Shown here piece by piece: positions 1-41,414 of a stretch of DNA of 47,152 nucleotides; within the stretch, counting starts at the first letter, position 1, and each line of letters begins with the position of its first letter. A model generated the notes under the pieces. That model saw only the letters and a list, made by a program, of their open reading frames with translations, did no database searches and was not told the DNA's origin. A program made the position numbers and the translations under genes. The stretch comes from Bryobacterales bacterium (GTDB lineage: Bacteria; Acidobacteriota; Terriglobia; Bryobacterales; UBA6623): the NCBI GenBank assembly GCA_028819575.1, contig JAPPLB010000090.1, positions 1 through 47,152 on the forward strand, read 5' to 3'.

Positions 1-90
1 GAACAGTACGTTGAGCACGGCAAGCAAGCGCAACGAAGTCCTGGCGGTCGTATCACGTGCTTCGACCGTCGGGTGATGAGAAATGCAGGT
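1..90 (+). mobile_element. MITE-like element, copy 1 (left part outside window)
   Basis: Right-hand half of the dispersed palindromic-ended element described at 13095-13272. It ends with the terminal repeat GATGAGAAATGCAGGT and is followed by TA at 91-92, the usual target dinucleotide. The internal block with GCAACGAAGTC and the CGACCGTCGGG segment matches the other copies. The left end lies outside the window. It stops 26 bp before the thiolase start and does not provide that gene's ribosome site. Confidence 0.8.
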
Positions 91-116
91 TAGTACGCAC
101 GGGCGGAGGAGAAATC

Positions 117-1325: not shown

Positions 1326-1995
1326 TCAGTGTTCTTCATTGGCCAAGTCGAGAACCATCTGGTGAGTCGCGGTGCTGAGCCGAAACTGCAATGCTTGGAG
1401 ACGATCCAGGACGGGCTTGACCGAATCGAGAAACCCACGTTCCTTCGCTAGCCTGCATGTCTCACCACGCGGCGAGGCGAAGTGGGTGAGAGGGCTGTCA
1501 GGACGAGGCGCGAGCCGCTTGGCGCGCGCAGGCGTACTTGAACAGTACGTTGAGCACGGCAAGCAAGCGCAACGAAGTCATGGCGGGCGTATCGCGTGCT
1601 TCGACCGTCGGGTGGTGAGACATGCAGGCTATCACCAGGATACCCAGTGTGCCCGTGATCTTCAGCCCTGCTGCGGCAGCGTATCGGCGCGCGTTTCGGT
1701 CATCCAACACAAGCAGATGGCCTGGCATCTCCAGCCCCAAGGCGAGAACTTCCTTTTCCCCATTGCCCAGACTCGTGACGAGCGGCAACAACTTGCGATC
1801 ACTCACCGGCCGCACTGTCACCCAGGGAAGGTCCGCCAACTCCGGCAAGCAGACGCCTCGTCTCCTGCCTTCGGCCAATTCAGTTGCCACGGCCGAAGGC
1901 GCCTGCACCGACCCGAAGAGGGTTGGCAGCAGGTGCAGCAGGTCCGCCTGATGCAGGTATTGCAACGGCGACGTGTTACAGATGACGTCGCGCAC
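1326..1995 (-). pseudogene. PIN-like (DUF3368) toxin gene split by MITE copy 2
   Basis: The first 123 codons (1995 down to about 1627) encode a PIN-fold toxin of the DUF3368 type: NTSPLQYLHQADLLHLLP at the N-terminus, GEKEVLALG in the middle and LLVLDDRNARRYA carrying the acidic metal ligands. After TGTLGILVIA the frame enters the inserted element and ends there after 42 foreign residues. The rest of the protein, KERGFLDSVKPVLDRLQA to a TGA at 1326-1328, lies on the far side in the same frame. Removing the 178-bp element and one TA restores LVIA-KERG exactly, so the insertion is clean. The gene overlaps the 3' end of the antitoxin gene by 20 bp, as in a normal toxin-antitoxin operon. The C-terminal helices are lost, so the toxin is probably inactive. 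Confidence 0.85.
1452..1629 (+). mobile_element. MITE-like element, copy 2 (178 bp, inserted in toxin gene)
   Basis: Complete copy flanked by TA at 1450-1451 and 1630-1631. The ends GCCTGCATGTCTCACCAC and GTGGTGAGACATGCAGGC are perfect 18-bp inverted repeats; both carry the same G/C variant relative to other copies. An internal hairpin CGTACT-TGAAC-AGTACG is present. There is no open frame for a transposase. The empty site can be rebuilt because the toxin reading frame is restored when the element and one TA are removed, which fixes the borders. Confidence 0.88.
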
Positions 1996-2856: not shown

Positions 2857-3522
2857 ATGAAACAACACAAGATAATCGGTTTTGGTTTGAGCGGAGTGTG
2901 GTTGTTGGCCGTTGGGGTCGTTATCTGCTTCAAATACAGCGATTTTGGGGTGATGTCTCTAAATGAGTGGGGAGATTTTTTCGCAGGCATCTCCGCCCCA
3001 TTGGCTCTGTTGTGGCTGGTAATTGGATATTTCCAACAAGGAGAAGAGCTACGGCTCAATACGGAAGTGCTGAGGGCGCAACAGTTGGAACTTGAGCGAC
3101 AAGTAGAGGAAACTGCTCAACTTGTGAAGGCCGCCAATCTGCAAGCGCAGGCAGCGCAACAGAATCTGAAGCAGCTCCAGGAGCGTGAGGCCAGGGAGGC
3201 TAAACCCGAATTCGTATACGCAGGTGGAAGTTCTTCAGGAGAACGAATTGAGATTGACATACTGAATCGTGGCGGAGAAGCATGTAATATAGTGTTTCAA
3301 TATGACGGCCCGCACGAATCCAGATTTTCCCCGACGGAGCTATTAGAATCGAATCACAAAGCTAAGCTGGTCTTCCATCAAGCGAGCAACCAGCCACTGG
3401 TTTACCCAATTCTATTCCTTATCAGTTGCACTGACCGTCTCGGCAACAGACACAAAATGAGTTTCGAACATTCAGAGCACAACAAGCTATTGAAAGTGAA
3501 AGCGGACCCAGAAAATGTCTAA
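2857..3522 (+). CDS. Membrane protein with two TM helices and a coiled coil, unknown function
   Basis: A 221-residue protein not assigned to a named family. Residues about 7-27 (IIGFGLSGVWLLAVGVVI) and 42-60 (FAGISAPLALLWLVIGYF) are likely membrane helices. They are followed by a long Gln/Glu-rich coiled coil at about 62-117 and a beta-rich C-terminal part (EIDILNRGGEACNIVFQ). This layout recurs in many bacterial hypothetical proteins, in which the C-terminal domain sits in the cytoplasm next to the membrane. The start has AGGAAAA just upstream. Base composition is visibly AT-richer than the neighbours and codon use differs (AAA, AAT, TTT common), which suggests recent acquisition. Flanking genes give no functional hint. 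Confidence 0.72.
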   Translation: MKQHKIIGFGLSGVWLLAVGVVICFKYSDFGVMSLNEWGDFFAGISAPLALLWLVIGYFQQGEELRLNTEVLRAQQLELERQVEETAQLVKAANLQAQAAQQNLKQLQEREAREAKPEFVYAGGSSSGERIEIDILNRGGEACNIVFQYDGPHESRFSPTELLESNHKAKLVFHQASNQPLVYPILFLISCTDRLGNRHKMSFEHSEHNKLLKVKADPENV

Positions 3523-3751
3523 TGGAGTCAGTAGTCTCTTAGGGTTTCTTGGTCCTGCCCTGGCCTTGCGTACTGCCAGCCGATCTCTCGCAAGGTCTGG
3601 GTGACTTGGTAGCCTTCAGCGTAGGATTTTCGAACATGCGCTCAGAGGACCTGCAAGGTGATGACTGCGAGGACACGGACCATTGCCGAGCGGTCGCGTT
3701 AACCAGAGCCAGCCCGTTAACACGGCGGAACTGCACCCCTGCCGCCTGCCC

Positions 3752-4660: not shown

Positions 4661-4872
4661 CGCAAGCTGGGCGGTTCACGAAACACGAATCACGGCCTTT
4701 TCCGACATTTCTTCTGGAGCGAACCATGCCCCCTGCCCATGGTTTTCACGAATCACGAGTCACGAAACACGAATCACGAGTCACGAAACACGAATCACGG
4801 CTTTTTTTCGAAACACGGCTTTTTTCAGACCCGAAACACGGCCTTTCCGTGGCTCGTTTGGTACCGGTTGGT

Positions 4873-4898
4873 ACTGAAGCCCTTCAGTCTTGTTTTTT
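4873..4898 (+). terminator. Terminator-like hairpin, repeat 1
   Basis: ACTGAAG, a CC loop and CTTCAGT form a perfect 7-bp stem followed by CTTGTTTTTT, the shape of a Rho-independent terminator on the plus strand. It is preceded by CGTGGCTCG and GGTACCGGTTGGT, which recur with hairpin 2. No upstream plus-strand gene needs it. Confidence 0.6.
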
Positions 4899-5161
4899 CG
4901 GCCGGAATGTGCTCTGGGTTGAGAGTGATGACGCCGTTGCTGGGAACGAAAACCTCTTCCGCGCCCGTCGGGGACGCGCCGGCTGGTGACAACAAAGCCG
5001 CCCAAGCCACGGCTTTTCAGGTATTTACGAGACCCGAGACCCGAGACACGGCGTTAGCTGGGCGCGAGGCGCAAGCCGGCGCGAATTCCGAGGTTTTCAC
5101 GAAACACGAGACCCGAGACACGAATCACGGCTTTCCCGTGGCTCGCTTGGTACCTGTTGGT

Positions 5162-5185
5162 ACTGAAGCCCTTCAGTCTTTTTTT
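5162..5185 (+). terminator. Terminator-like hairpin, repeat 2
   Basis: Second copy of ACTGAAG-CC-CTTCAGT, here followed by C and an uninterrupted run of eight T. The preceding segment CCCGTGGCTCGCTTGGTACC matches that of hairpin 1, so hairpin and leader were duplicated together. Confidence 0.62.
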
Positions 5186-5341
5186 ACTGCGCCGGGCCGC
5201 CTAGCATGAGGACAGCGAGGAGGAAATCCAGCAGTTCGACTTCCCGCCGACGCGACGCTCGGCTCTGGCGACTGCCGCCTCCCACGCAGGCTAGGGTTTT
5301 CACGAGACACGAAACACGAGACACGAATCACGGCTTTTTGT

Positions 5342-5365
5342 ACTGAAGCCCTTCAGTCTTTTTTT
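5342..5365 (+). terminator. Terminator-like hairpin, repeat 3
   Basis: Third copy of ACTGAAG-CC-CTTCAGT followed by C and eight T. Here the heptamer array (5301-5333) joins the hairpin almost directly through CTTTTTGT; the CCGTGGCTCG segment is missing. Confidence 0.6.
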
Positions 5366-5463
5366 CAGTCGGGGGACGGTTTAGGTTGAAAGTGATGACG
5401 CCGTTGTGGGGAACAAAACACTCATCCGCGCTCGTCGGGGGCAAGTCGGGTGGGGACAGAAGA

Positions 5464-5670
5464 GCCGCCCGGTCGCTGCTTTCCTGCGCGTTGTGGCGCG
5501 GCATGGCGCGGCTATGGCGCGGCATGGGCGGCCGCCGTCCCCCGCGCAGGCAACACGGCCTGCTGGGTTTTCACCAGCCACGGGACACGCAACATGGTTT
5601 TCCCCTGCCCTCCGGCGACTCCAAGGCGAGCAACCCCAAGCCCGAACAACGGGTTTTCACGAAACACGAA
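5464..5670. repeat. About 205-bp direct repeat, unit A
   Basis: Starts at GCCGCCCGGTCGCTGC and runs to GGTTTTCACGAAACACGA. It is nearly identical to 5741-5950, 277 bp downstream. It contains three GC-rich 11-mers of the GGCGCGGCATG type, then CACGGCCTGCTGG and ACGCAACATGGTTTTCCCC. Confidence 0.75.
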
Positions 5671-5740
5671 AGACGGCTTTTTTCACCGTGCATGCGCAAG
5701 GGACACACAGTCAGAAACCACCGTCTGGACCGCCGTGCAC

Positions 5741-5950
5741 GCCGCCCGGTCACTGCTTTCCTGCGCGTTGTGGAGCGGCATGGCGCGGCTATGGCGCGGC
5801 ATGGGTGGCCGCCGTCCCCCGCGCAGGCAACACGGCCTGTTGGCTTTTCACCAGCCACGGGACACGCAACATGGTTTTCCCCTGCCCTCCGGCGACTTCA
5901 TGGAGAGCAACCTCAAGCCCGACCAACGGGTTTTTCACGAATCACGAGAC
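5741..5950. repeat. About 205-bp direct repeat, unit B
   Basis: Second copy of the unit at 5464-5670, with scattered substitutions (GCTGCT to ACTGCT, GTTGTGGCG to GTTGTGGAG, CCAAGG to TCATGG). It ends in the heptamer array at 5936-5961. The 70 bp between the two units are unique. Confidence 0.75.
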
Positions 5951-5980
5951 ACGAATCACGGCTTTTTTTCGAATCACGGC

Positions 5981-6030
5981 TTCCCACGATTTCCCACGAT
6001 TTCCCACCATTTCCCGGCATTTCCCGGCCC
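5981..6030. repeat. 10-bp tandem repeat, five units
   Basis: Five adjoining decamers of the pattern TTCCCACGAT: two identical, then TTCCCACCAT, TTCCCGGCAT and TTCCCGGCCC. It lies directly after the last heptamer array and before a C-rich run. Confidence 0.8.
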
Positions 6031-10029: not shown

Positions 10030-10232
10030 GCATGCATTTCTCGCCACGCGGCGAGGCGAAGTGCGTGAGAGGGCCGTCAGGACTAGGCGCAAGCCGGGCG
10101 GAGGAAAAAGGCGCGAGCCGCTTGGCGCGCGCAGGCGTACTTGAACAGTACATTGAGCACGGCAAGCAAGCGCAACGAAGTCCTGGCGGTCGTATCGCGT
10201 GCTTCGGACGTCGTGTGGTGAGAAAGGTAGGC
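10030..10232 (+). mobile_element. MITE-like element, copy 3 (203 bp, with extra internal block)
   Basis: Ends GCATGCATTTCTCGCC and GGTGAGAAAGGTAGGC; flanks are TG on the left and TA on the right, so one side has probably mutated. It carries about 25 bp more than the others: the GGCGCGAGCCG block is partly duplicated with AAGCCGGGCGGAGGAAAAA between. The internal hairpin CGTACT-TGAAC-AGTACA is slightly weakened. It lies between the divergent HEAT lipoprotein and M14 peptidase genes, where both promoters should be. Confidence 0.85.
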
Positions 10233-10401: not shown

Positions 10402-13095
10402 ATGTGCAATCTGAGTTTGCTATTCGCAAGATTCCTTCTCGTTCTTTGTCTCCTGAGTCCCGCTGCTTCCTGGGCGCAGGACTCCTCGTTACCGACACCG
10501 GATGAATTCGCCGGCTTCGCGATCGGGTCCGACGGCAACCTTCTGCGGTGGGAGAAGATCGTCGAATACTTCCAACTGGTTGCGGAAGGCAGTGATCGTG
10601 TGCTCTTCGAAGAACGCGGAGAATCCACGAACGGCAACCAGCTTGTAATGGCGACGATCTCGTCGCCGGACAACCTGGCCCGGCTCGACGAGATCCAGGC
10701 CCGGCAAAAACTCCTGGCCGACCCCCGCCGGCTCAACGACGAGCAGATCGAGCAGCTCCCCTGGGAATCGCCCATCGTCGTGCTGATGACGTGCAACATC
10801 CACTCCACCGAAATCGGTTCGTCACAGATGGCCCTGAAGGTCTTGCATCGGCTGGCGACCGAGAACTCACCCTGGGTGCGGAATGTTCTCGATCATGTCC
10901 TTTTCCTGCTGATGCCCTCGTTGAACCCCGATGGACAGATCATGGTGACCGACTGGAACAACCGTGTTCGCGGCACGGACCATGTCTGGTCGCCGCTGCC
11001 CCGGCTCTATCACCCGTATGTCGGGCACGACAACAACCGTGACGCCTTTCTCATGACGCAGGTCGAGGCGCGAATCACCAACAAGGTGCTCTACCACGAC
11101 TGGCTGCCGCAAGTGTTTCTCGATCAGCACCAGATGGGTCCGACGGGGATGCGCGTTTTCGTTCCGCCGTTCACGAATCCGATCAACCCCAACGTCAATC
11201 CGGTCATCTGGACGGAACTCGGAATGTTCGGACTCGCGATGTTCAATCGCTTGCACGAGGCGGGTTTCACCGGCATCGGCTACAACATCGACTACACCAG
11301 TTGGTGGCAGGGCGGTTTCATCCGGGCGCCCTGGTACCACAACATCGTCGGACTTCTGACGGAAGTGGCGAGCGCGAATCTGGCCAGTCCGGTCTATCAG
11401 GAGAAGGCGCAGTTGTGGCAAAAGCCCGACAACTCCTACACCTCCAAGGATTGGGTGAAAAGGCGCGAGAAGAACCCCGCGGCTCCTGCGCCCGCGCCCC
11501 GGCGCGTGGCGCCGCTCGTGAACTACCCGCGTCCGTGGCTGGGCGGCAAATGGACGCTGAACGACATCATCGAGCGGAAGTTGGTCATCTCATACAGCCT
11601 GCTCGAAACAGCGGCGAACAACCGGGTTCAGGTGATCGAGAACCAGATCGGAATGGGCCTCAAGGCCGTCGAGCAGGGTGAGCAGGGTAGCCCGTTCGCG
11701 TTCGTCTATCCGACCGGGCAGCATGACCCCGACGCCCTCTACGAGTTGCTGGAAGCGCTGCACTTCAACGGCGTCGAGGTGCATCGGGCGCGCGAAGTTT
11801 TCGCGGCCGACGGCGAAGAGCACGCCGCGGGCAGCTACGTGATCCGGATGGCTCAGCCGTACCGCAACTACGTCATCGACTTGATGACGCCCCACGAATA
11901 TCCCGATCCCGGGGACATGCCGGCCGGCGCGATGAGATCCACTCCCTACGATTCGACTACTTGGACGATGCCGCTGCAGATGGGTGTTGAAGTGACTCGC
12001 GTCGAGAAGCCCTTCGAGGCGTCGCTGGAGAAACTCGACGCCATTCCTCTGCCTGTCGGCGAGTTGCATCGTGACGGGGAGGGCCGGTTTGGTTTCTTGA
12101 TACGGCCCGAGCCCAACAATACGGCCAAGGCGTTGAACCGCTTGCTCCGTGACGGGGCCGACGTGCGTTGGACCACCGAGGAGTGGGCGGCAGGCGGCGT
12201 CAACTATCCGCCGGGAACTCTCTGGGTGCGCGGCCTGGAGACGGAGGAAGCCGCCGCGGTCGTCGAGCCGCTCGGGCTCACGGGGGGGCTTGCCGCGGGA
12301 GTTCCCCCGATACGGACGCAACCCCTCGGCAAGCCCCGCTTGGCCCTGTATCAGCCGTGGACGTCTTCAATGGACGAAGGCTGGACTCGCTGGTTGCTCG
12401 AAGAATACGAATTCGACTTGACGACGGTCCATAACGTGGATATTCGCGGCGGAGGGCTACGGAAGAAGTGGGATGCATTGATTCTGCCCGGAGACCGCGG
12501 CGACGAGAGCATCCTCTCGGGACTCGAAAGCAAATCCGTGCCGGAAGAGTATCGCGGCGGCATCGGCGAGAAAGGACGCGCAGCGATTCGGAAATTCGTC
12601 GCGGACGGAGGGACGTTGATCACCATGGGCGGCTCATCGGATTTCGCGCTTCGCACCTTTGAATTGCCGGTCAAGAACTCTCTTGAAGGTGTCAAGACCT
12701 CCGAGTTCTCATGCCCCGGGTCGTTTCTTCGCATCTTCGTCGACAACCGCAACCCGCTCGCCTACGGGATGCCCGACGAGGCGACCGCCGTGTTCAAGGG
12801 CGACGCGGTGTTCGAGCCGGTCCCCGAGTTCAGCTACACGGCCTTGAAGGTCGTGGCCCGCTATCCGGGGTTCAACCCTTTGCAGAGCGGTTGGATTCGG
12901 GGAGCCGAGCATCTCTACAATCGCATCGCGGCGGCGGAAGTGATCTACAAGAAGGGCCGCATCGTGCTGATTGGCTTCCGGCCCCAGCACCGGGCGCAGG
13001 CGCACAACACCTTCAAGCTGCTGTTCAATTCGATTCATCTTTCCGCGGCGGGTCCGGCAGAAGTGCTTCGCTCCGGTGACAGCCAAGTCCGCTGA
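10402..13095 (+). CDS. Secreted M14-family zinc carboxypeptidase-like protein
   Basis: 897 residues with a signal peptide (FARFLLVLCLLSPAASWAQ, about 8-26). The M14 zinc-binding pair is His134 and Glu137 in CNIHSTEIG, with the third ligand His243 in DQHQMGPTG. NNRD at 211-214 fits the substrate-carboxylate site, and Glu321 in LLTEVAS fits the catalytic glutamate. The long C-terminal half (about 420-890) contains a DJ-1/glutamine-amidotransferase-like stretch (WDALILPG, FVADGGTLITMG). The same order occurs in large secreted M14 peptidases of Acidobacteria and Bacteroidetes. It probably trims peptides in the periplasm or outside the cell. No ribosome site is evident before ATG 10402. Its TGA stop is shared with the insertion site of MITE copy 4. 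Confidence 0.9.
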   Translation: MCNLSLLFARFLLVLCLLSPAASWAQDSSLPTPDEFAGFAIGSDGNLLRWEKIVEYFQLVAEGSDRVLFEERGESTNGNQLVMATISSPDNLARLDEIQARQKLLADPRRLNDEQIEQLPWESPIVVLMTCNIHSTEIGSSQMALKVLHRLATENSPWVRNVLDHVLFLLMPSLNPDGQIMVTDWNNRVRGTDHVWSPLPRLYHPYVGHDNNRDAFLMTQVEARITNKVLYHDWLPQVFLDQHQMGPTGMRVFVPPFTNPINPNVNPVIWTELGMFGLAMFNRLHEAGFTGIGYNIDYTSWWQGGFIRAPWYHNIVGLLTEVASANLASPVYQEKAQLWQKPDNSYTSKDWVKRREKNPAAPAPAPRRVAPLVNYPRPWLGGKWTLNDIIERKLVISYSLLETAANNRVQVIENQIGMGLKAVEQGEQGSPFAFVYPTGQHDPDALYELLEALHFNGVEVHRAREVFAADGEEHAAGSYVIRMAQPYRNYVIDLMTPHEYPDPGDMPAGAMRSTPYDSTTWTMPLQMGVEVTRVEKPFEASLEKLDAIPLPVGELHRDGEGRFGFLIRPEPNNTAKALNRLLRDGADVRWTTEEWAAGGVNYPPGTLWVRGLETEEAAAVVEPLGLTGGLAAGVPPIRTQPLGKPRLALYQPWTSSMDEGWTRWLLEEYEFDLTTVHNVDIRGGGLRKKWDALILPGDRGDESILSGLESKSVPEEYRGGIGEKGRAAIRKFVADGGTLITMGGSSDFALRTFELPVKNSLEGVKTSEFSCPGSFLRIFVDNRNPLAYGMPDEATAVFKGDAVFEPVPEFSYTALKVVARYPGFNPLQSGWIRGAEHLYNRIAAAEVIYKKGRIVLIGFRPQHRAQAHNTFKLLFNSIHLSAAGPAEVLRSGDSQVR

Positions 13096-13272
13096 CCTGC
13101 ATTTCTCACCACGTGGCGAGGCGAAGTGGGTGAGAGGGCCGTCAGGACGAGGCGCGAGCCGCTTGGTGCGCGCAGGCGTACTTGACGGTACGTCGAGCAC
13201 GGCAAGCAAGCGCAACGAAGTCATGGCGGTCATACCGCGTGCTTCGGCCGTCGGGTGGTGAGAAATGCAGGT
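13095..13272 (+). mobile_element. MITE-like element, copy 4 (178 bp, reference copy)
   Basis: The ends ACCTGCATTTCTCACCAC and GTGGTGAGAAATGCAGGT are perfect 18-bp inverted repeats; similarity continues more loosely to about 34 bp (GCGAAG against CCGAAG). TG flanks it on both sides (13093-13094 and 13273-13274). The internal hairpin is CGTAC-TTGACG-GTACG. The left TG plus the element's first base A form the TGA stop of the M14 gene; the right TG is also followed by A, so the empty site had TGA too. There is no transposase frame. Confidence 0.9.
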
Positions 13273-13368
13273 TGACTTTGGCAAGCAGCCGCATCAAGCG
13301 CGAATCGAATGCTCGCGCGTCGGCGCCTTCTCTTTGGCGTAGGGGTACGGCCTGTCCGCCTGCAGCTG

Positions 13369-36797: not shown

Positions 36798-36903
36798 CCT
36801 GCAGTCGCAAGAGCGGGAAGCATCAGATGTTTGTGCGTAGCGTATGCCGCAACGAACGGCGAGGCGATCATGCTGACATGGCGTAGCCCGGAGGGTGGTC
36901 TGG

Positions 36904-38550
36904 ATGGCTGTCCGTCTCGGTGAACTGCTGATCCGCAAAGGCCTGCTCGACGCCGACGATCTGGAGCAGGCGCTCGAGCTCCAAAGGGAACGCGGCGACA
37001 AGATCGGCAAGATCCTCGTCGATCTCGGGTTCGTCAATCCTCGTGACGTCCTGGCCACTCTTTCCGAGCAGCTTCAGATTCCTCTACTGGCGGCGGATGA
37101 CTTCCCGCCCGTTCTCCCCGAGGTCGAGCGGATCACGCCGAAGTACATGCGGCAGTTCCTGTTTCTGCCGATTCATGTCGACGACACCAAGCTCACCGTG
37201 GCGATGGCGGATCCGCTGGACTTCGAGACGATAGCGACGCTGCGTCAGTTCAGCGGACTCAATGTCAAGGGCGTTCTGGCCGCCGAGCAGGAGATCCTCG
37301 ACGCAATCGACAGGTATTTCGGCGAGCAGGAGCGGGAAGGCGAAAGCGAATTCGGCGCCGGGGACGACTCCGATGCGGCCCAGATCGAGCACCTGCGTGA
37401 CATGGCGAGTGAGGCGCCGGTCATCCGCCTTGTCAACGGCATGATCTCACGGGCGCTCGAGTTGCGAGCGAGCGATATCCACCTGGAACCCTTCGAGAAG
37501 GATTTCCGGGTTCGCTTCCGCGTTGACGGCGTATTGCATGACCAGGAGGCGCCTCAGCGTGACTTGCGCGCGGCCGTAATTTCGCGCATCAAGCTGATGG
37601 CGCGTCTCAACATCGCCGAACGGCGACTTCCGCAGGACGGGCGCATCAAGATCAAGGCTCTCGGCCACGAAGTCGACCTGCGGGTCTCGACACTACCGAT
37701 GCTCTATGGCGAGAGCGTCGTGATGCGCCTGCTGGATCGCAGCGCCAGTGACTTCTACGACCTGGACAAGTTGGGCTTTGACGATCTCATGCTTCACCGC
37801 ATGGAGCACTTCACGAAGCTGCCGCACGGCATTTTCCTGGTGACCGGACCGACGGGCAGCGGGAAGTCAACGACCCTCTATTCAGCACTGAAACTCATCA
37901 ACGGACCGCAGAAGAAGATCATCACGATCGAAGATCCGGTTGAGTATCAGATGAACGGGATCAATCAGATTCACGTGAATCCACAGATTGGGCTGACGTT
38001 CTCGGCGGGGCTGCGGCATATCGTCCGCCAGGACCCGGACGTGATCATGGTCGGAGAGATCCGTGACCGGGAGACCGCCGACATGAGCATCCGCTCGGCG
38101 CTCACCGGACACTTCGTCTATTCGACTCTGCATACCAACGATGCGCCGAGTGCGATCACGCGCCTTACGGACATGGGTGTGGAGAATTACCTGCTGACGT
38201 CGTCGCTGGTCGCGGTGCTGGCGCAACGTTTGGTTCGCAAAATCTGCAGAAACTGCAAGACCGAAGACGGTCTTGTCGATACGCCGGGCGGCAAGCAAGT
38301 CCGAACGTGGCGGGGTACGGGTTGCGAACAGTGCATCGGCACGGGCTACAGTGGTCGCGTGGGCATCTTCGAACTGATGGAAATGAACGAAGAGATACGG
38401 AGTCTCATCATGCGCAACGAGGATGCATCGGTTCTCACCGACTCCGCGCGACGCAACGGTATGAGGAATCTTCGTGAAGACGGCTGGGAGAAGATCGCCT
38501 GCGGAGTCACGACGGTCGAGGAAGTTCTGCGGGTGACGCAGGAGTTTTAG
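36904..38550 (+). CDS. gspE: Type II secretion ATPase GspE
   Basis: 548 residues from MAVRLGELLIRKG. I chose the ATG at 36904 (GGAGGG 8 nt upstream) over the GTG at 36895. The N-terminal GspE-N domain (about 1-150) is followed by the ATPase: ASDIHLEPFEKDFRVRFRVDG, Walker A GPTGSGKST at 315-323, Asp box ITIEDPVEYQ and Walker B VIMVGEIRDRETADM. The zinc-binding tetracysteine motif is CRNC...GCEQC at about 450-475. It powers pseudopilus assembly at the cytoplasmic side of the inner membrane. First gene of the secretion operon. Its TAG stop is created jointly with MITE copy 5. Confidence 0.94.
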   Translation: MAVRLGELLIRKGLLDADDLEQALELQRERGDKIGKILVDLGFVNPRDVLATLSEQLQIPLLAADDFPPVLPEVERITPKYMRQFLFLPIHVDDTKLTVAMADPLDFETIATLRQFSGLNVKGVLAAEQEILDAIDRYFGEQEREGESEFGAGDDSDAAQIEHLRDMASEAPVIRLVNGMISRALELRASDIHLEPFEKDFRVRFRVDGVLHDQEAPQRDLRAAVISRIKLMARLNIAERRLPQDGRIKIKALGHEVDLRVSTLPMLYGESVVMRLLDRSASDFYDLDKLGFDDLMLHRMEHFTKLPHGIFLVTGPTGSGKSTTLYSALKLINGPQKKIITIEDPVEYQMNGINQIHVNPQIGLTFSAGLRHIVRQDPDVIMVGEIRDRETADMSIRSALTGHFVYSTLHTNDAPSAITRLTDMGVENYLLTSSLVAVLAQRLVRKICRNCKTEDGLVDTPGGKQVRTWRGTGCEQCIGTGYSGRVGIFELMEMNEEIRSLIMRNEDASVLTDSARRNGMRNLREDGWEKIACGVTTVEEVLRVTQEF

Positions 38551-38728
38551 CATGCCTTTCTCACCACGCGGCGAGGTGAAGTGCGTGAGAGGGCCGTCAG
38601 GACGAGGCGCGAGCCGCTTGGCGCGCGCAGGCGTACTTGAACAGTACGTTGAGCACGGCAAGCAAGCGCAACGAAGTCATGGCGGTCATACCGCGTGCTT
38701 CGACCGTCGGGTGGTGAGAAAGGCAGGT
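38550..38728 (+). mobile_element. MITE-like element, copy 5 (179 bp, at the gspE stop codon)
   Basis: Ends GCATGCCTTTCTCACCAC and GTGGTGAGAAAGGCAGGT, flanked by TA at 38548-38549 and 38729-38730. The gspE stop is TA from the target plus G, the first base of the element; the right TA is also followed by G, so the empty site also read TAG. The internal hairpin CGTACT-TGAAC-AGTACG is intact. About 266 bp separate the element's right end from gspF. Confidence 0.9.
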
Positions 38729-38994
38729 TAGGAGCGTGTCTCGGAATTCATGAATCGAAGTGGTCTGTTGCCGGCATCAGCAAGTAACGCAGTTCATGCG
38801 AGGAGCCGTTTGCGAACGAGAGATGCTGAAAGATGCCGGCAACCGGCCTCGAATACGGTTCGCGGGACGACATCGCCGAACCAGACTCAGACGTCGACCG
38901 GAACGGAGCCATGACCGTCGCCTTGGAAAGGCCGCCAAAGAAACCCCAGGCAGGTTAGCCGCAGTCCATTTCGCAACGCCAGAAACGAATCACG

Positions 38995-40698: not shown

Positions 40699-40742
40699 TT
40701 CAGAGTTGAATAGCGTCTTACCTGCTGAGGGTCAGTGTCCCA

Positions 40743-40918
40743 GCCTGCCTTTCTTCCACGTGGCGAGGCGAACTGCGTGAAAGGGGGGCAGGACAAGGCG
40801 CGAATTACCTGGCGCGCGCGGGCGCACTTGACAGTGCATCGAGCACGACAAGCCAGCGCAACGAAGCCATGGCGGCCGTATCGCCTGCTTCGGCCGTCAG
40901 GTGGAGAAAAATGCAGGT
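40743..40918 (+). mobile_element. MITE-like element, copy 6 (176 bp, in front of gspH)
   Basis: Ends GCCTGCCTTTCTTCCAC and GTGGAGAAAAATGCAGGT, flanked by CA on both sides (40741-40742 and 40919-40920). Most diverged copy: GGGGGGCAGGACAAGG replaces the usual GGGCCGTCAGGACGAGG and the internal hairpin has changed to GCACT-TGAC-AGTGC, with both arms altered so that pairing is kept. The right end supplies GGAG and ATG used by gspH. Confidence 0.87.
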
Positions 40919-41414
40919 CAGGTTCCCCAACTACATATCTCGGGGCCTCCGCTCCAGGCGCCGAAGCGACAGCGGGATCACACTGGTCGAGTTGCTGATC
41001 GGCCTGACCATCATCGCGTTGATCCTGGCGATTGCCTGGCCCAACGTGACCAGCGGCATCGACGGCATCCGCCTGCGTACCGCGGTGGACAACATCGCCG
41101 TGTTCTTCACCGAAGCGCGCAATATGTCGGATCGCCTGCAAACGCCCGTACAGGTCACCGTGCTGCCCGAAGAGGATCGGCTGCGAGCGGTAACGATCGA
41201 CGGCGCCTGGCGGAACGTCTATGACCTCCCGGATCGGATCCATATCCTCTTGCCGCGTGAGCCGGGCGCAGTGATCTTGTTCCCCGGCGCGCCGGCGCCG
41301 GGACTCCGCCTGCTGCTGGAAGCCGAACATGGCCCACAGACCGGCCTGCAGTTCAACGTCTTCACAGGAGTAGCGGAGAAGTGGGAGCCCGACGAGCCCG
41401 TCTCGGCGATCTGA
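40911..41414 (+). CDS. gspH: Minor pseudopilin GspH
   Basis: 167 residues when read from the ATG at 40911 (MQVRFPNYIS), which has GGAG 6 nt upstream; both lie in the right terminal repeat of MITE copy 6. A start 42 bp further up (40869) would add 14 element-encoded residues. The prepilin site is DSG|ITLVELLIGL after Gly22, with Glu at +5. The C-terminal beta domain (VTVLPEEDRLRAVTIDG, RIHILLPREPG) is of the GspH/FimT type. It sits at the pseudopilus tip complex with I, J and K. It precedes gspI by 4 bp. Confidence 0.88.
   Translation: MQVRFPNYISRGLRSRRRSDSGITLVELLIGLTIIALILAIAWPNVTSGIDGIRLRTAVDNIAVFFTEARNMSDRLQTPVQVTVLPEEDRLRAVTIDGAWRNVYDLPDRIHILLPREPGAVILFPGAPAPGLRLLLEAEHGPQTGLQFNVFTGVAEKWEPDEPVSAI

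Follow-up and report, generated by a model that had tools for sequence, protein, structure and literature searches.

The bacterial MITEs RUP, Correia and MITEAba12 have been attributed to resident insertion sequences with matching termini (PMC2229807, PMC6382973). Among insertion sequences, IS5 of Escherichia coli was shown to make a 4-bp target duplication of the form YTAR, with CTAG as the commonest word (PMC5493358, PMC10359306), while a 5-bp duplication was reported for IS1247, an IS1380-family element of Paracoccus (PMC3281130). The piggyBac superfamily targets TTAA (PMC7351741), one of the four YTAR words, and IS1380 has been used as an outgroup in piggyBac trees (PMC10813416). In the titles, abstracts and passages available, we found no report on MITEs of the IS1380 family or on YTAR elements at stop codons.

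Here we describe a MITE found in a contig of a Bryobacterales bacterium (JAPPLB010000090.1, assembly GCA_028819575.1), the whole of which, 47,152 nucleotides, is called the window. Like RUP, Correia and MITEAba12, the element is short, multicopy, bounded by inverted repeats and mostly intergenic. Unlike RUP, which duplicates TA, and MITEAba12, which duplicates 9 bp, it duplicates YTAR, and unlike these A+T-rich bacterial MITEs it is G+C-rich and present in several hundred copies. Resident copies of the IS1380 family (NCBIfam NF033539, Pfam PF13701) have its CCTGCATTTCTCACCA terminus and also make YTAR duplications, but the MITE carries no gene, measures 177 bp instead of 1.72 kb and has an interior without clear relation to theirs. 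The IS5 element of E. coli makes the same YTAR duplication with a transposase of a different family. The piggyBac elements are eukaryotic and TTAA-specific, and what they have in common with the present case is a resemblance only.

A palindromic element between 4-bp target duplications

In the window, the stop codons of gspE (TAG, ending at 38550) and of an M14 peptidase gene (TGA, ending at 13095) each directly abut a copy of the repeat (Table 1). The element is a palindromic core of 176-177 bp, CCTGCATTTCTCACCAC...GTGGTGAGAAATGCAGG (177 bp in the profile consensus), with near-perfect terminal inverted repeats, and lies between 4-bp target duplications with the consensus YTAR. At 30 genome loci inspected, the core starts with CCTGC and ends with GCAGG, and the flanks read, for example, TTAG/TTAG, CTAA/CTAA or CTAG/CTAG. 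Among 73 provisionally paired copies, of which a few are possibly mispaired, the left and right flanks agreed at exactly four positions, with 62-73% identity there and mostly near 27% outside. Since the identity is confined to these four positions (offsets 0-3), the target duplication is 4 bp long. The initial annotation had assumed 2 bp, and its element boundaries were off by one or two bases. At 373 junctions, the commonest flanks were CTAG (95), TTAG (56), CTGA (30), CTAA (30), CCAG (21) and TTAA (18), and exact YTAR was present at 53%. An exact duplication is kept in only 33 of 127 complete copies.

Table 1. Copies of the MITE in the window and the two gene ends that they adjoin
Feature	Position	Strand	Remarks
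gspE (T2SSE)	36895..38550	+	ends ...VTQEF, stop; T2SSE by Pfam
Left target copy TTAG, holds gspE stop TAG (38548-38550)	38547..38550	+	G002 empty site CTAG
MITE core, 177 bp, terminal inverted repeats CATGCCTTTCTCACCAC / GTGGTGAGAAAGGCAGG	38551..38727	+	
Right target copy TTAG (gspE site)	38728..38731	+	
M14 peptidase gene	10402..13095	+	ends ...DSQVR, stop; Peptidase_M14 by Pfam
Left target copy CTGA, holds M14 stop TGA	13092..13095	+	G002 empty site CTGA
MITE core, 176 bp (M14 site)	13096..13271	+	
Right target copy TTGA, one difference from left CTGA (M14 site)	13272..13275	+	
Further MITE copy: CTAG, core 1452-1628, CTAT	1448..1632	+	
Further MITE copy, 201-bp class: CTGG, core 10031-10231, CTAA	10027..10235	+	
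Diverged MITE copy: CCAG, core 40744-40917, TCAG	40740..40921	+	
Right half of MITE copy, cut by contig start, then TTAG (90-93)	1..93	+	

Genome-wide, 562 forward and 575 reverse matches to the element ends were found with up to 2 mismatches, while a reversed control pattern gave no match at this threshold. As a complete copy contributes one forward and one reverse end, these numbers point to several hundred copies and suggest a copy number of roughly 570 or more. This is probably an underestimate because many contigs of this MAG begin or end inside a copy, as the window does at positions 1-93.

One window copy folds into a long hairpin (-114 kcal/mol, z -8.3). A structured RNA family was considered and rejected, since a search of the window against Rfam gave no match at gathering score. 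The element is short, non-coding and multicopy, carries terminal inverted repeats and makes a duplication of fixed length, 4 bp, with empty sites in a related genome (see below). These features make it a MITE, with several hundred copies in the genome of one acidobacterium.

Other repeats were also observed in the window. Positions 4669-5982 hold degenerate short-period repeats of the type CACGAATCACGAGACACGAATCACGG together with longer repeated blocks, and strings like the CACGAATCACGAGACACGAATCACGG repeats also adjoin MITE copies elsewhere in the genome. Moreover, a 165-nt stretch over the 3' end of a thiolase gene (1091-1255) is duplicated downstream at 2389-2553 with 87% identity.

The stop codons predate the insertions

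We compared the window's own genome (G000) with a genome of the same genus (G002) and with a further genome (G001). Both sites are free of the element in G002, where gspE and the M14 gene end at the same codons as in G000. The empty gspE site of G002 reads GAGTTCTAGG, and its empty M14 site reads CGCTGACTTTGG, where the filled site of the window reads CGCTGA, then the element, then TTGACTTTGG. The gspE protein ends with VTQEF in all three genomes, the gene end of G001 reading GAGTTTTAAGG; the M14 C-terminus has diverged in G001, and its end is not alignable residue by residue. Because each stop lies wholly in the 4-bp target and is present at the element-free sites of G002, both stops predate the insertions, and neither takes any base from the element.

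The initial annotation had proposed that the insertions rebuild the stops, the TAG of gspE from a target TA plus the first base of the element, G, and the TGA of the M14 gene from a target TG plus an A of the element. Instead, TAG is whole within the TTAG duplication and TGA is whole within CTGA, which is also the sequence of the empty site, so that a pre-existing stop is duplicated with the target and nothing is rebuilt. What was correctly recognized is that both insertions abut stops and leave the proteins with unchanged ends: the element-lacking relative G002 has the same stop codons, with no extension past the insertion point.

Between G000 and G002, both flanks could be placed in the other genome for 16 copies of G000 and 13 copies of G002. 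In about 10 of these cases the other genome has a clean empty site, where the tetranucleotide is present once and mostly fits YTRR. By eye, we also noticed an apparent gene for a four-helix-bundle (S23-type) protein between gspE and gspF in G001 (L154, approximately 3190-3560); G000 (window 38732-38990) and G002 keep mere remnants similar to it.

Frequency of insertions at gene stops

For the frequency of stop landings we sampled 1.83 Mb from G000 and 0.4 Mb from G002, calling genes with a hexamer scorer of our own (1408 genes in the 1.83 Mb). In the G000 sample, a called gene stop in the same direction was found at offset 0 for 65 of the 373 element ends, every other offset within 80 bp having 0-4 stops, and about a third of the complete copies (42/127) touch a gene stop. 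Stop landings are therefore general in this genome. The controls for this share were devised successively on the same data and the p values are uncorrected; outcomes with and without an excess are all given here.

Measured against all intergenic YTAR sites, stops are hit in 1.5-1.9-fold excess, as would be expected from a transposase that is actively directed to stops or gene 3' ends, beyond YTAR, by DNA structure, terminators or a cue from translation or transcription. Exact stops make up 18.8% of YTAR junctions versus 10.9% of neutral YTAR site-directions outside copies (p 0.002), and with tetranucleotides matched 36 stops were observed where 23.4 were expected. Among 3'-facing sites of the pooled genomes, the odds ratio for stops was 1.9 (p 0.0014). 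The small numbers of G002 alone give a stronger excess, with stops at 10 of 29 YTAR junctions versus 12% in the null, and within 50 bp of gene ends 10 junctions lie on the stop and 0 beyond it (null 66 and 37). However, other comparisons speak against active direction. The youngest copies, with the profile score class as proxy for age, showed 9 stops versus 8.0 expected, and the oldest 22 versus 11.8. When convergent, co-directional and divergent spacers were stratified, 27 stops were observed and 23.1 expected. Compared with YTAR sites 1-20, 1-50 and 1-120 bp downstream of stops, no excess was found in G000 (odds ratios 0.6-0.9), nor in G000 and G002 pooled for 20, 50 and 120 bp (odds ratios 1.1, 0.9 and 1.2; p 1.0, 0.68 and 0.43). 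We therefore consider an actively stop-directed transposase unlikely, although it fares best among the alternatives.

YTGA flanks are over-represented at stops, with 17 of 30 at a stop versus 3.6 expected, and this excess has no direct explanation from a preference for YTAR. At one G000 copy (C51 25324) the stop side reads TGA, but CTAG stands at the opposite flank and at the empty site, which suggests that an original TAG stop became TGA once the element had inserted. Such cases would arise if selection preserved the stop next to the gene and the opposite flank were left to drift. YTGA may be a minor target as well, since the empty M14 site itself reads CTGA.

Called genes hold only 29 of the 373 junctions versus 48% of the YTAR sites. 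Copies are over-represented in convergent spacers (34% versus 17%) and depleted in divergent spacers (18% versus 32%). This depletion fits a purging of copies from genes and promoters, and an insertion bias would look alike; we infer that it is selection, not insertion bias, that keeps genes and promoter regions free of copies.

The enrichment in convergent spacers, together with the strong hairpin described above, would also agree with copies being retained at stops for a function of the hairpin at 3' ends, for instance in transcript termination or mRNA protection. Yet no T-tract follows the copy behind gspE or the one behind the M14 gene, stops are not hit in excess over nearby downstream sites, and strong hairpins are normal for MITEs. 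We regard such a function as slightly less probable still than active direction to stops.

Overall, the stop pattern is real and common, and it is largely predicted by YTAR targeting together with avoidance of gene bodies and promoters. A raised stop share is indeed seen in the samples over all intergenic YTAR sites, but the share is about as expected after context control, and a specific targeting of stop codons, as considered in the initial annotation, is not needed once YTAR and tolerated context are taken into account. The other suggestion made at that time, that selection merely keeping such insertions might suffice, agrees with this outcome. A residual enrichment, at most about twofold over all intergenic YTAR sites, may exist. 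We consider it unlikely that an IS1380-type transposase genuinely prefers stops, YTGA stops included, by 1.5- to 2-fold or more over YTAR sites of equal accessibility.

Candidate mobilising transposase

A search of the genome with PF13701 identified two intact copies of an IS1380-family transposase, on C109 and C121 (494 bits). The protein scores 385 bits against NCBIfam NF033539 (cut-off 180), which assigns it to the IS1380-type DDE transposases. The insertion sequences measure 1723 and 1724 bp, have terminal inverted repeats and lie between the perfect duplications CTAA/CTAA and CTAG/CTAG; the C109 copy itself lies behind a TAA that ends an open frame of 139 codons. Their left end reads CCTGCATTTCTCACCAG in one copy and begins with CCCGC in the other, where the MITE has CCTGCATTTCTCACCAC. 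In one copy the left terminus and that of the MITE agree at 16 of 16 positions; at the right end only 13 of 17 agree, and MITE and insertion sequence have little in common beyond the termini. The MITE thus shares its termini with a resident autonomous element, less well so at the right end, and we propose that it is most likely mobilised in trans by the IS1380-family transposase. Another candidate, the one long pair of left and right ends in the first 1.07 Mb (C176 18188-19975), was rejected as it encloses an apparent unrelated transporter gene (judged by eye).

A mobiliser of the IS5 family instead of IS1380 was considered in view of the YTAR duplication, mostly CTAG, of E. coli IS5. Searching the genome with PF01609 returned the two IS1380 copies, a fragment on C153 and one short element (C114, C185) that adjoins MITE sequence. 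This only PF01609 element of length other than IS1380 has a shared segment that begins near GGGCCTGTTAACA, unlike the MITE, to which the left terminus of one IS1380 copy is identical over all 16 positions. The termini of E. coli IS5 differ from those of the MITE as well. An IS5-family mobiliser was therefore rejected as improbable, more so than a function of the hairpin. A transposase-bearing element with similarity to DDE_Tnp_1 (L224 from 1431 and L225 1048-1936, with a shared segment of 889 bp) was seen at two places, where it lies within MITE sequence or next to it.

Finally, an element that carries part of the stop itself, adding its own first base to a 2-bp TA or TG target in the manner of the TA-targeting IS630/Tc1-mariner MITEs, would fit the base after TA or TG at both window junctions, but is ruled out for practical purposes by flank identity over four positions rather than two, by empty sites that have the third stop base without any element, and by a recurring core that begins with CCTGC, after the R of YTAR.

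Discussion

We consider it very probable that the repeat is a non-autonomous MITE, approximately 177 bp long, which IS1380 most likely mobilises and which duplicates YTAR at stops that were already there and is purged from genes and promoters. The IS1380-family DDE transposase would insert the MITE in trans at YTAR and duplicate the tetranucleotide. YTAR (CTAG, TTAG, CTAA, TTAA) is its own reverse complement, and a TAG or TAA always lies within it. Since the motif already contains a stop codon, genes ending there keep their own stop, and with a target at a gene end the duplication leaves it intact on one side. Insertions in genes and near promoters would be lost, so that the remaining copies would be found in intergenic DNA and at gene stops. 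A known kind of target choice accounts for the landing at stops, with no special seeking or rebuilding of stops.

A residual enrichment that proved genuine would add a rare example of transposition with a bias to translation stops, and with a genuine stop preference the MITE would spread at gene ends with little damage by target recognition and not by selection alone. Reading the target as 4 bp of YTAR, and not as 2 bp, matters for annotating such elements and for inferring the ends of adjacent genes. A motif that contains a stop on both strands offers a low-damage landing at gene ends without special targeting.
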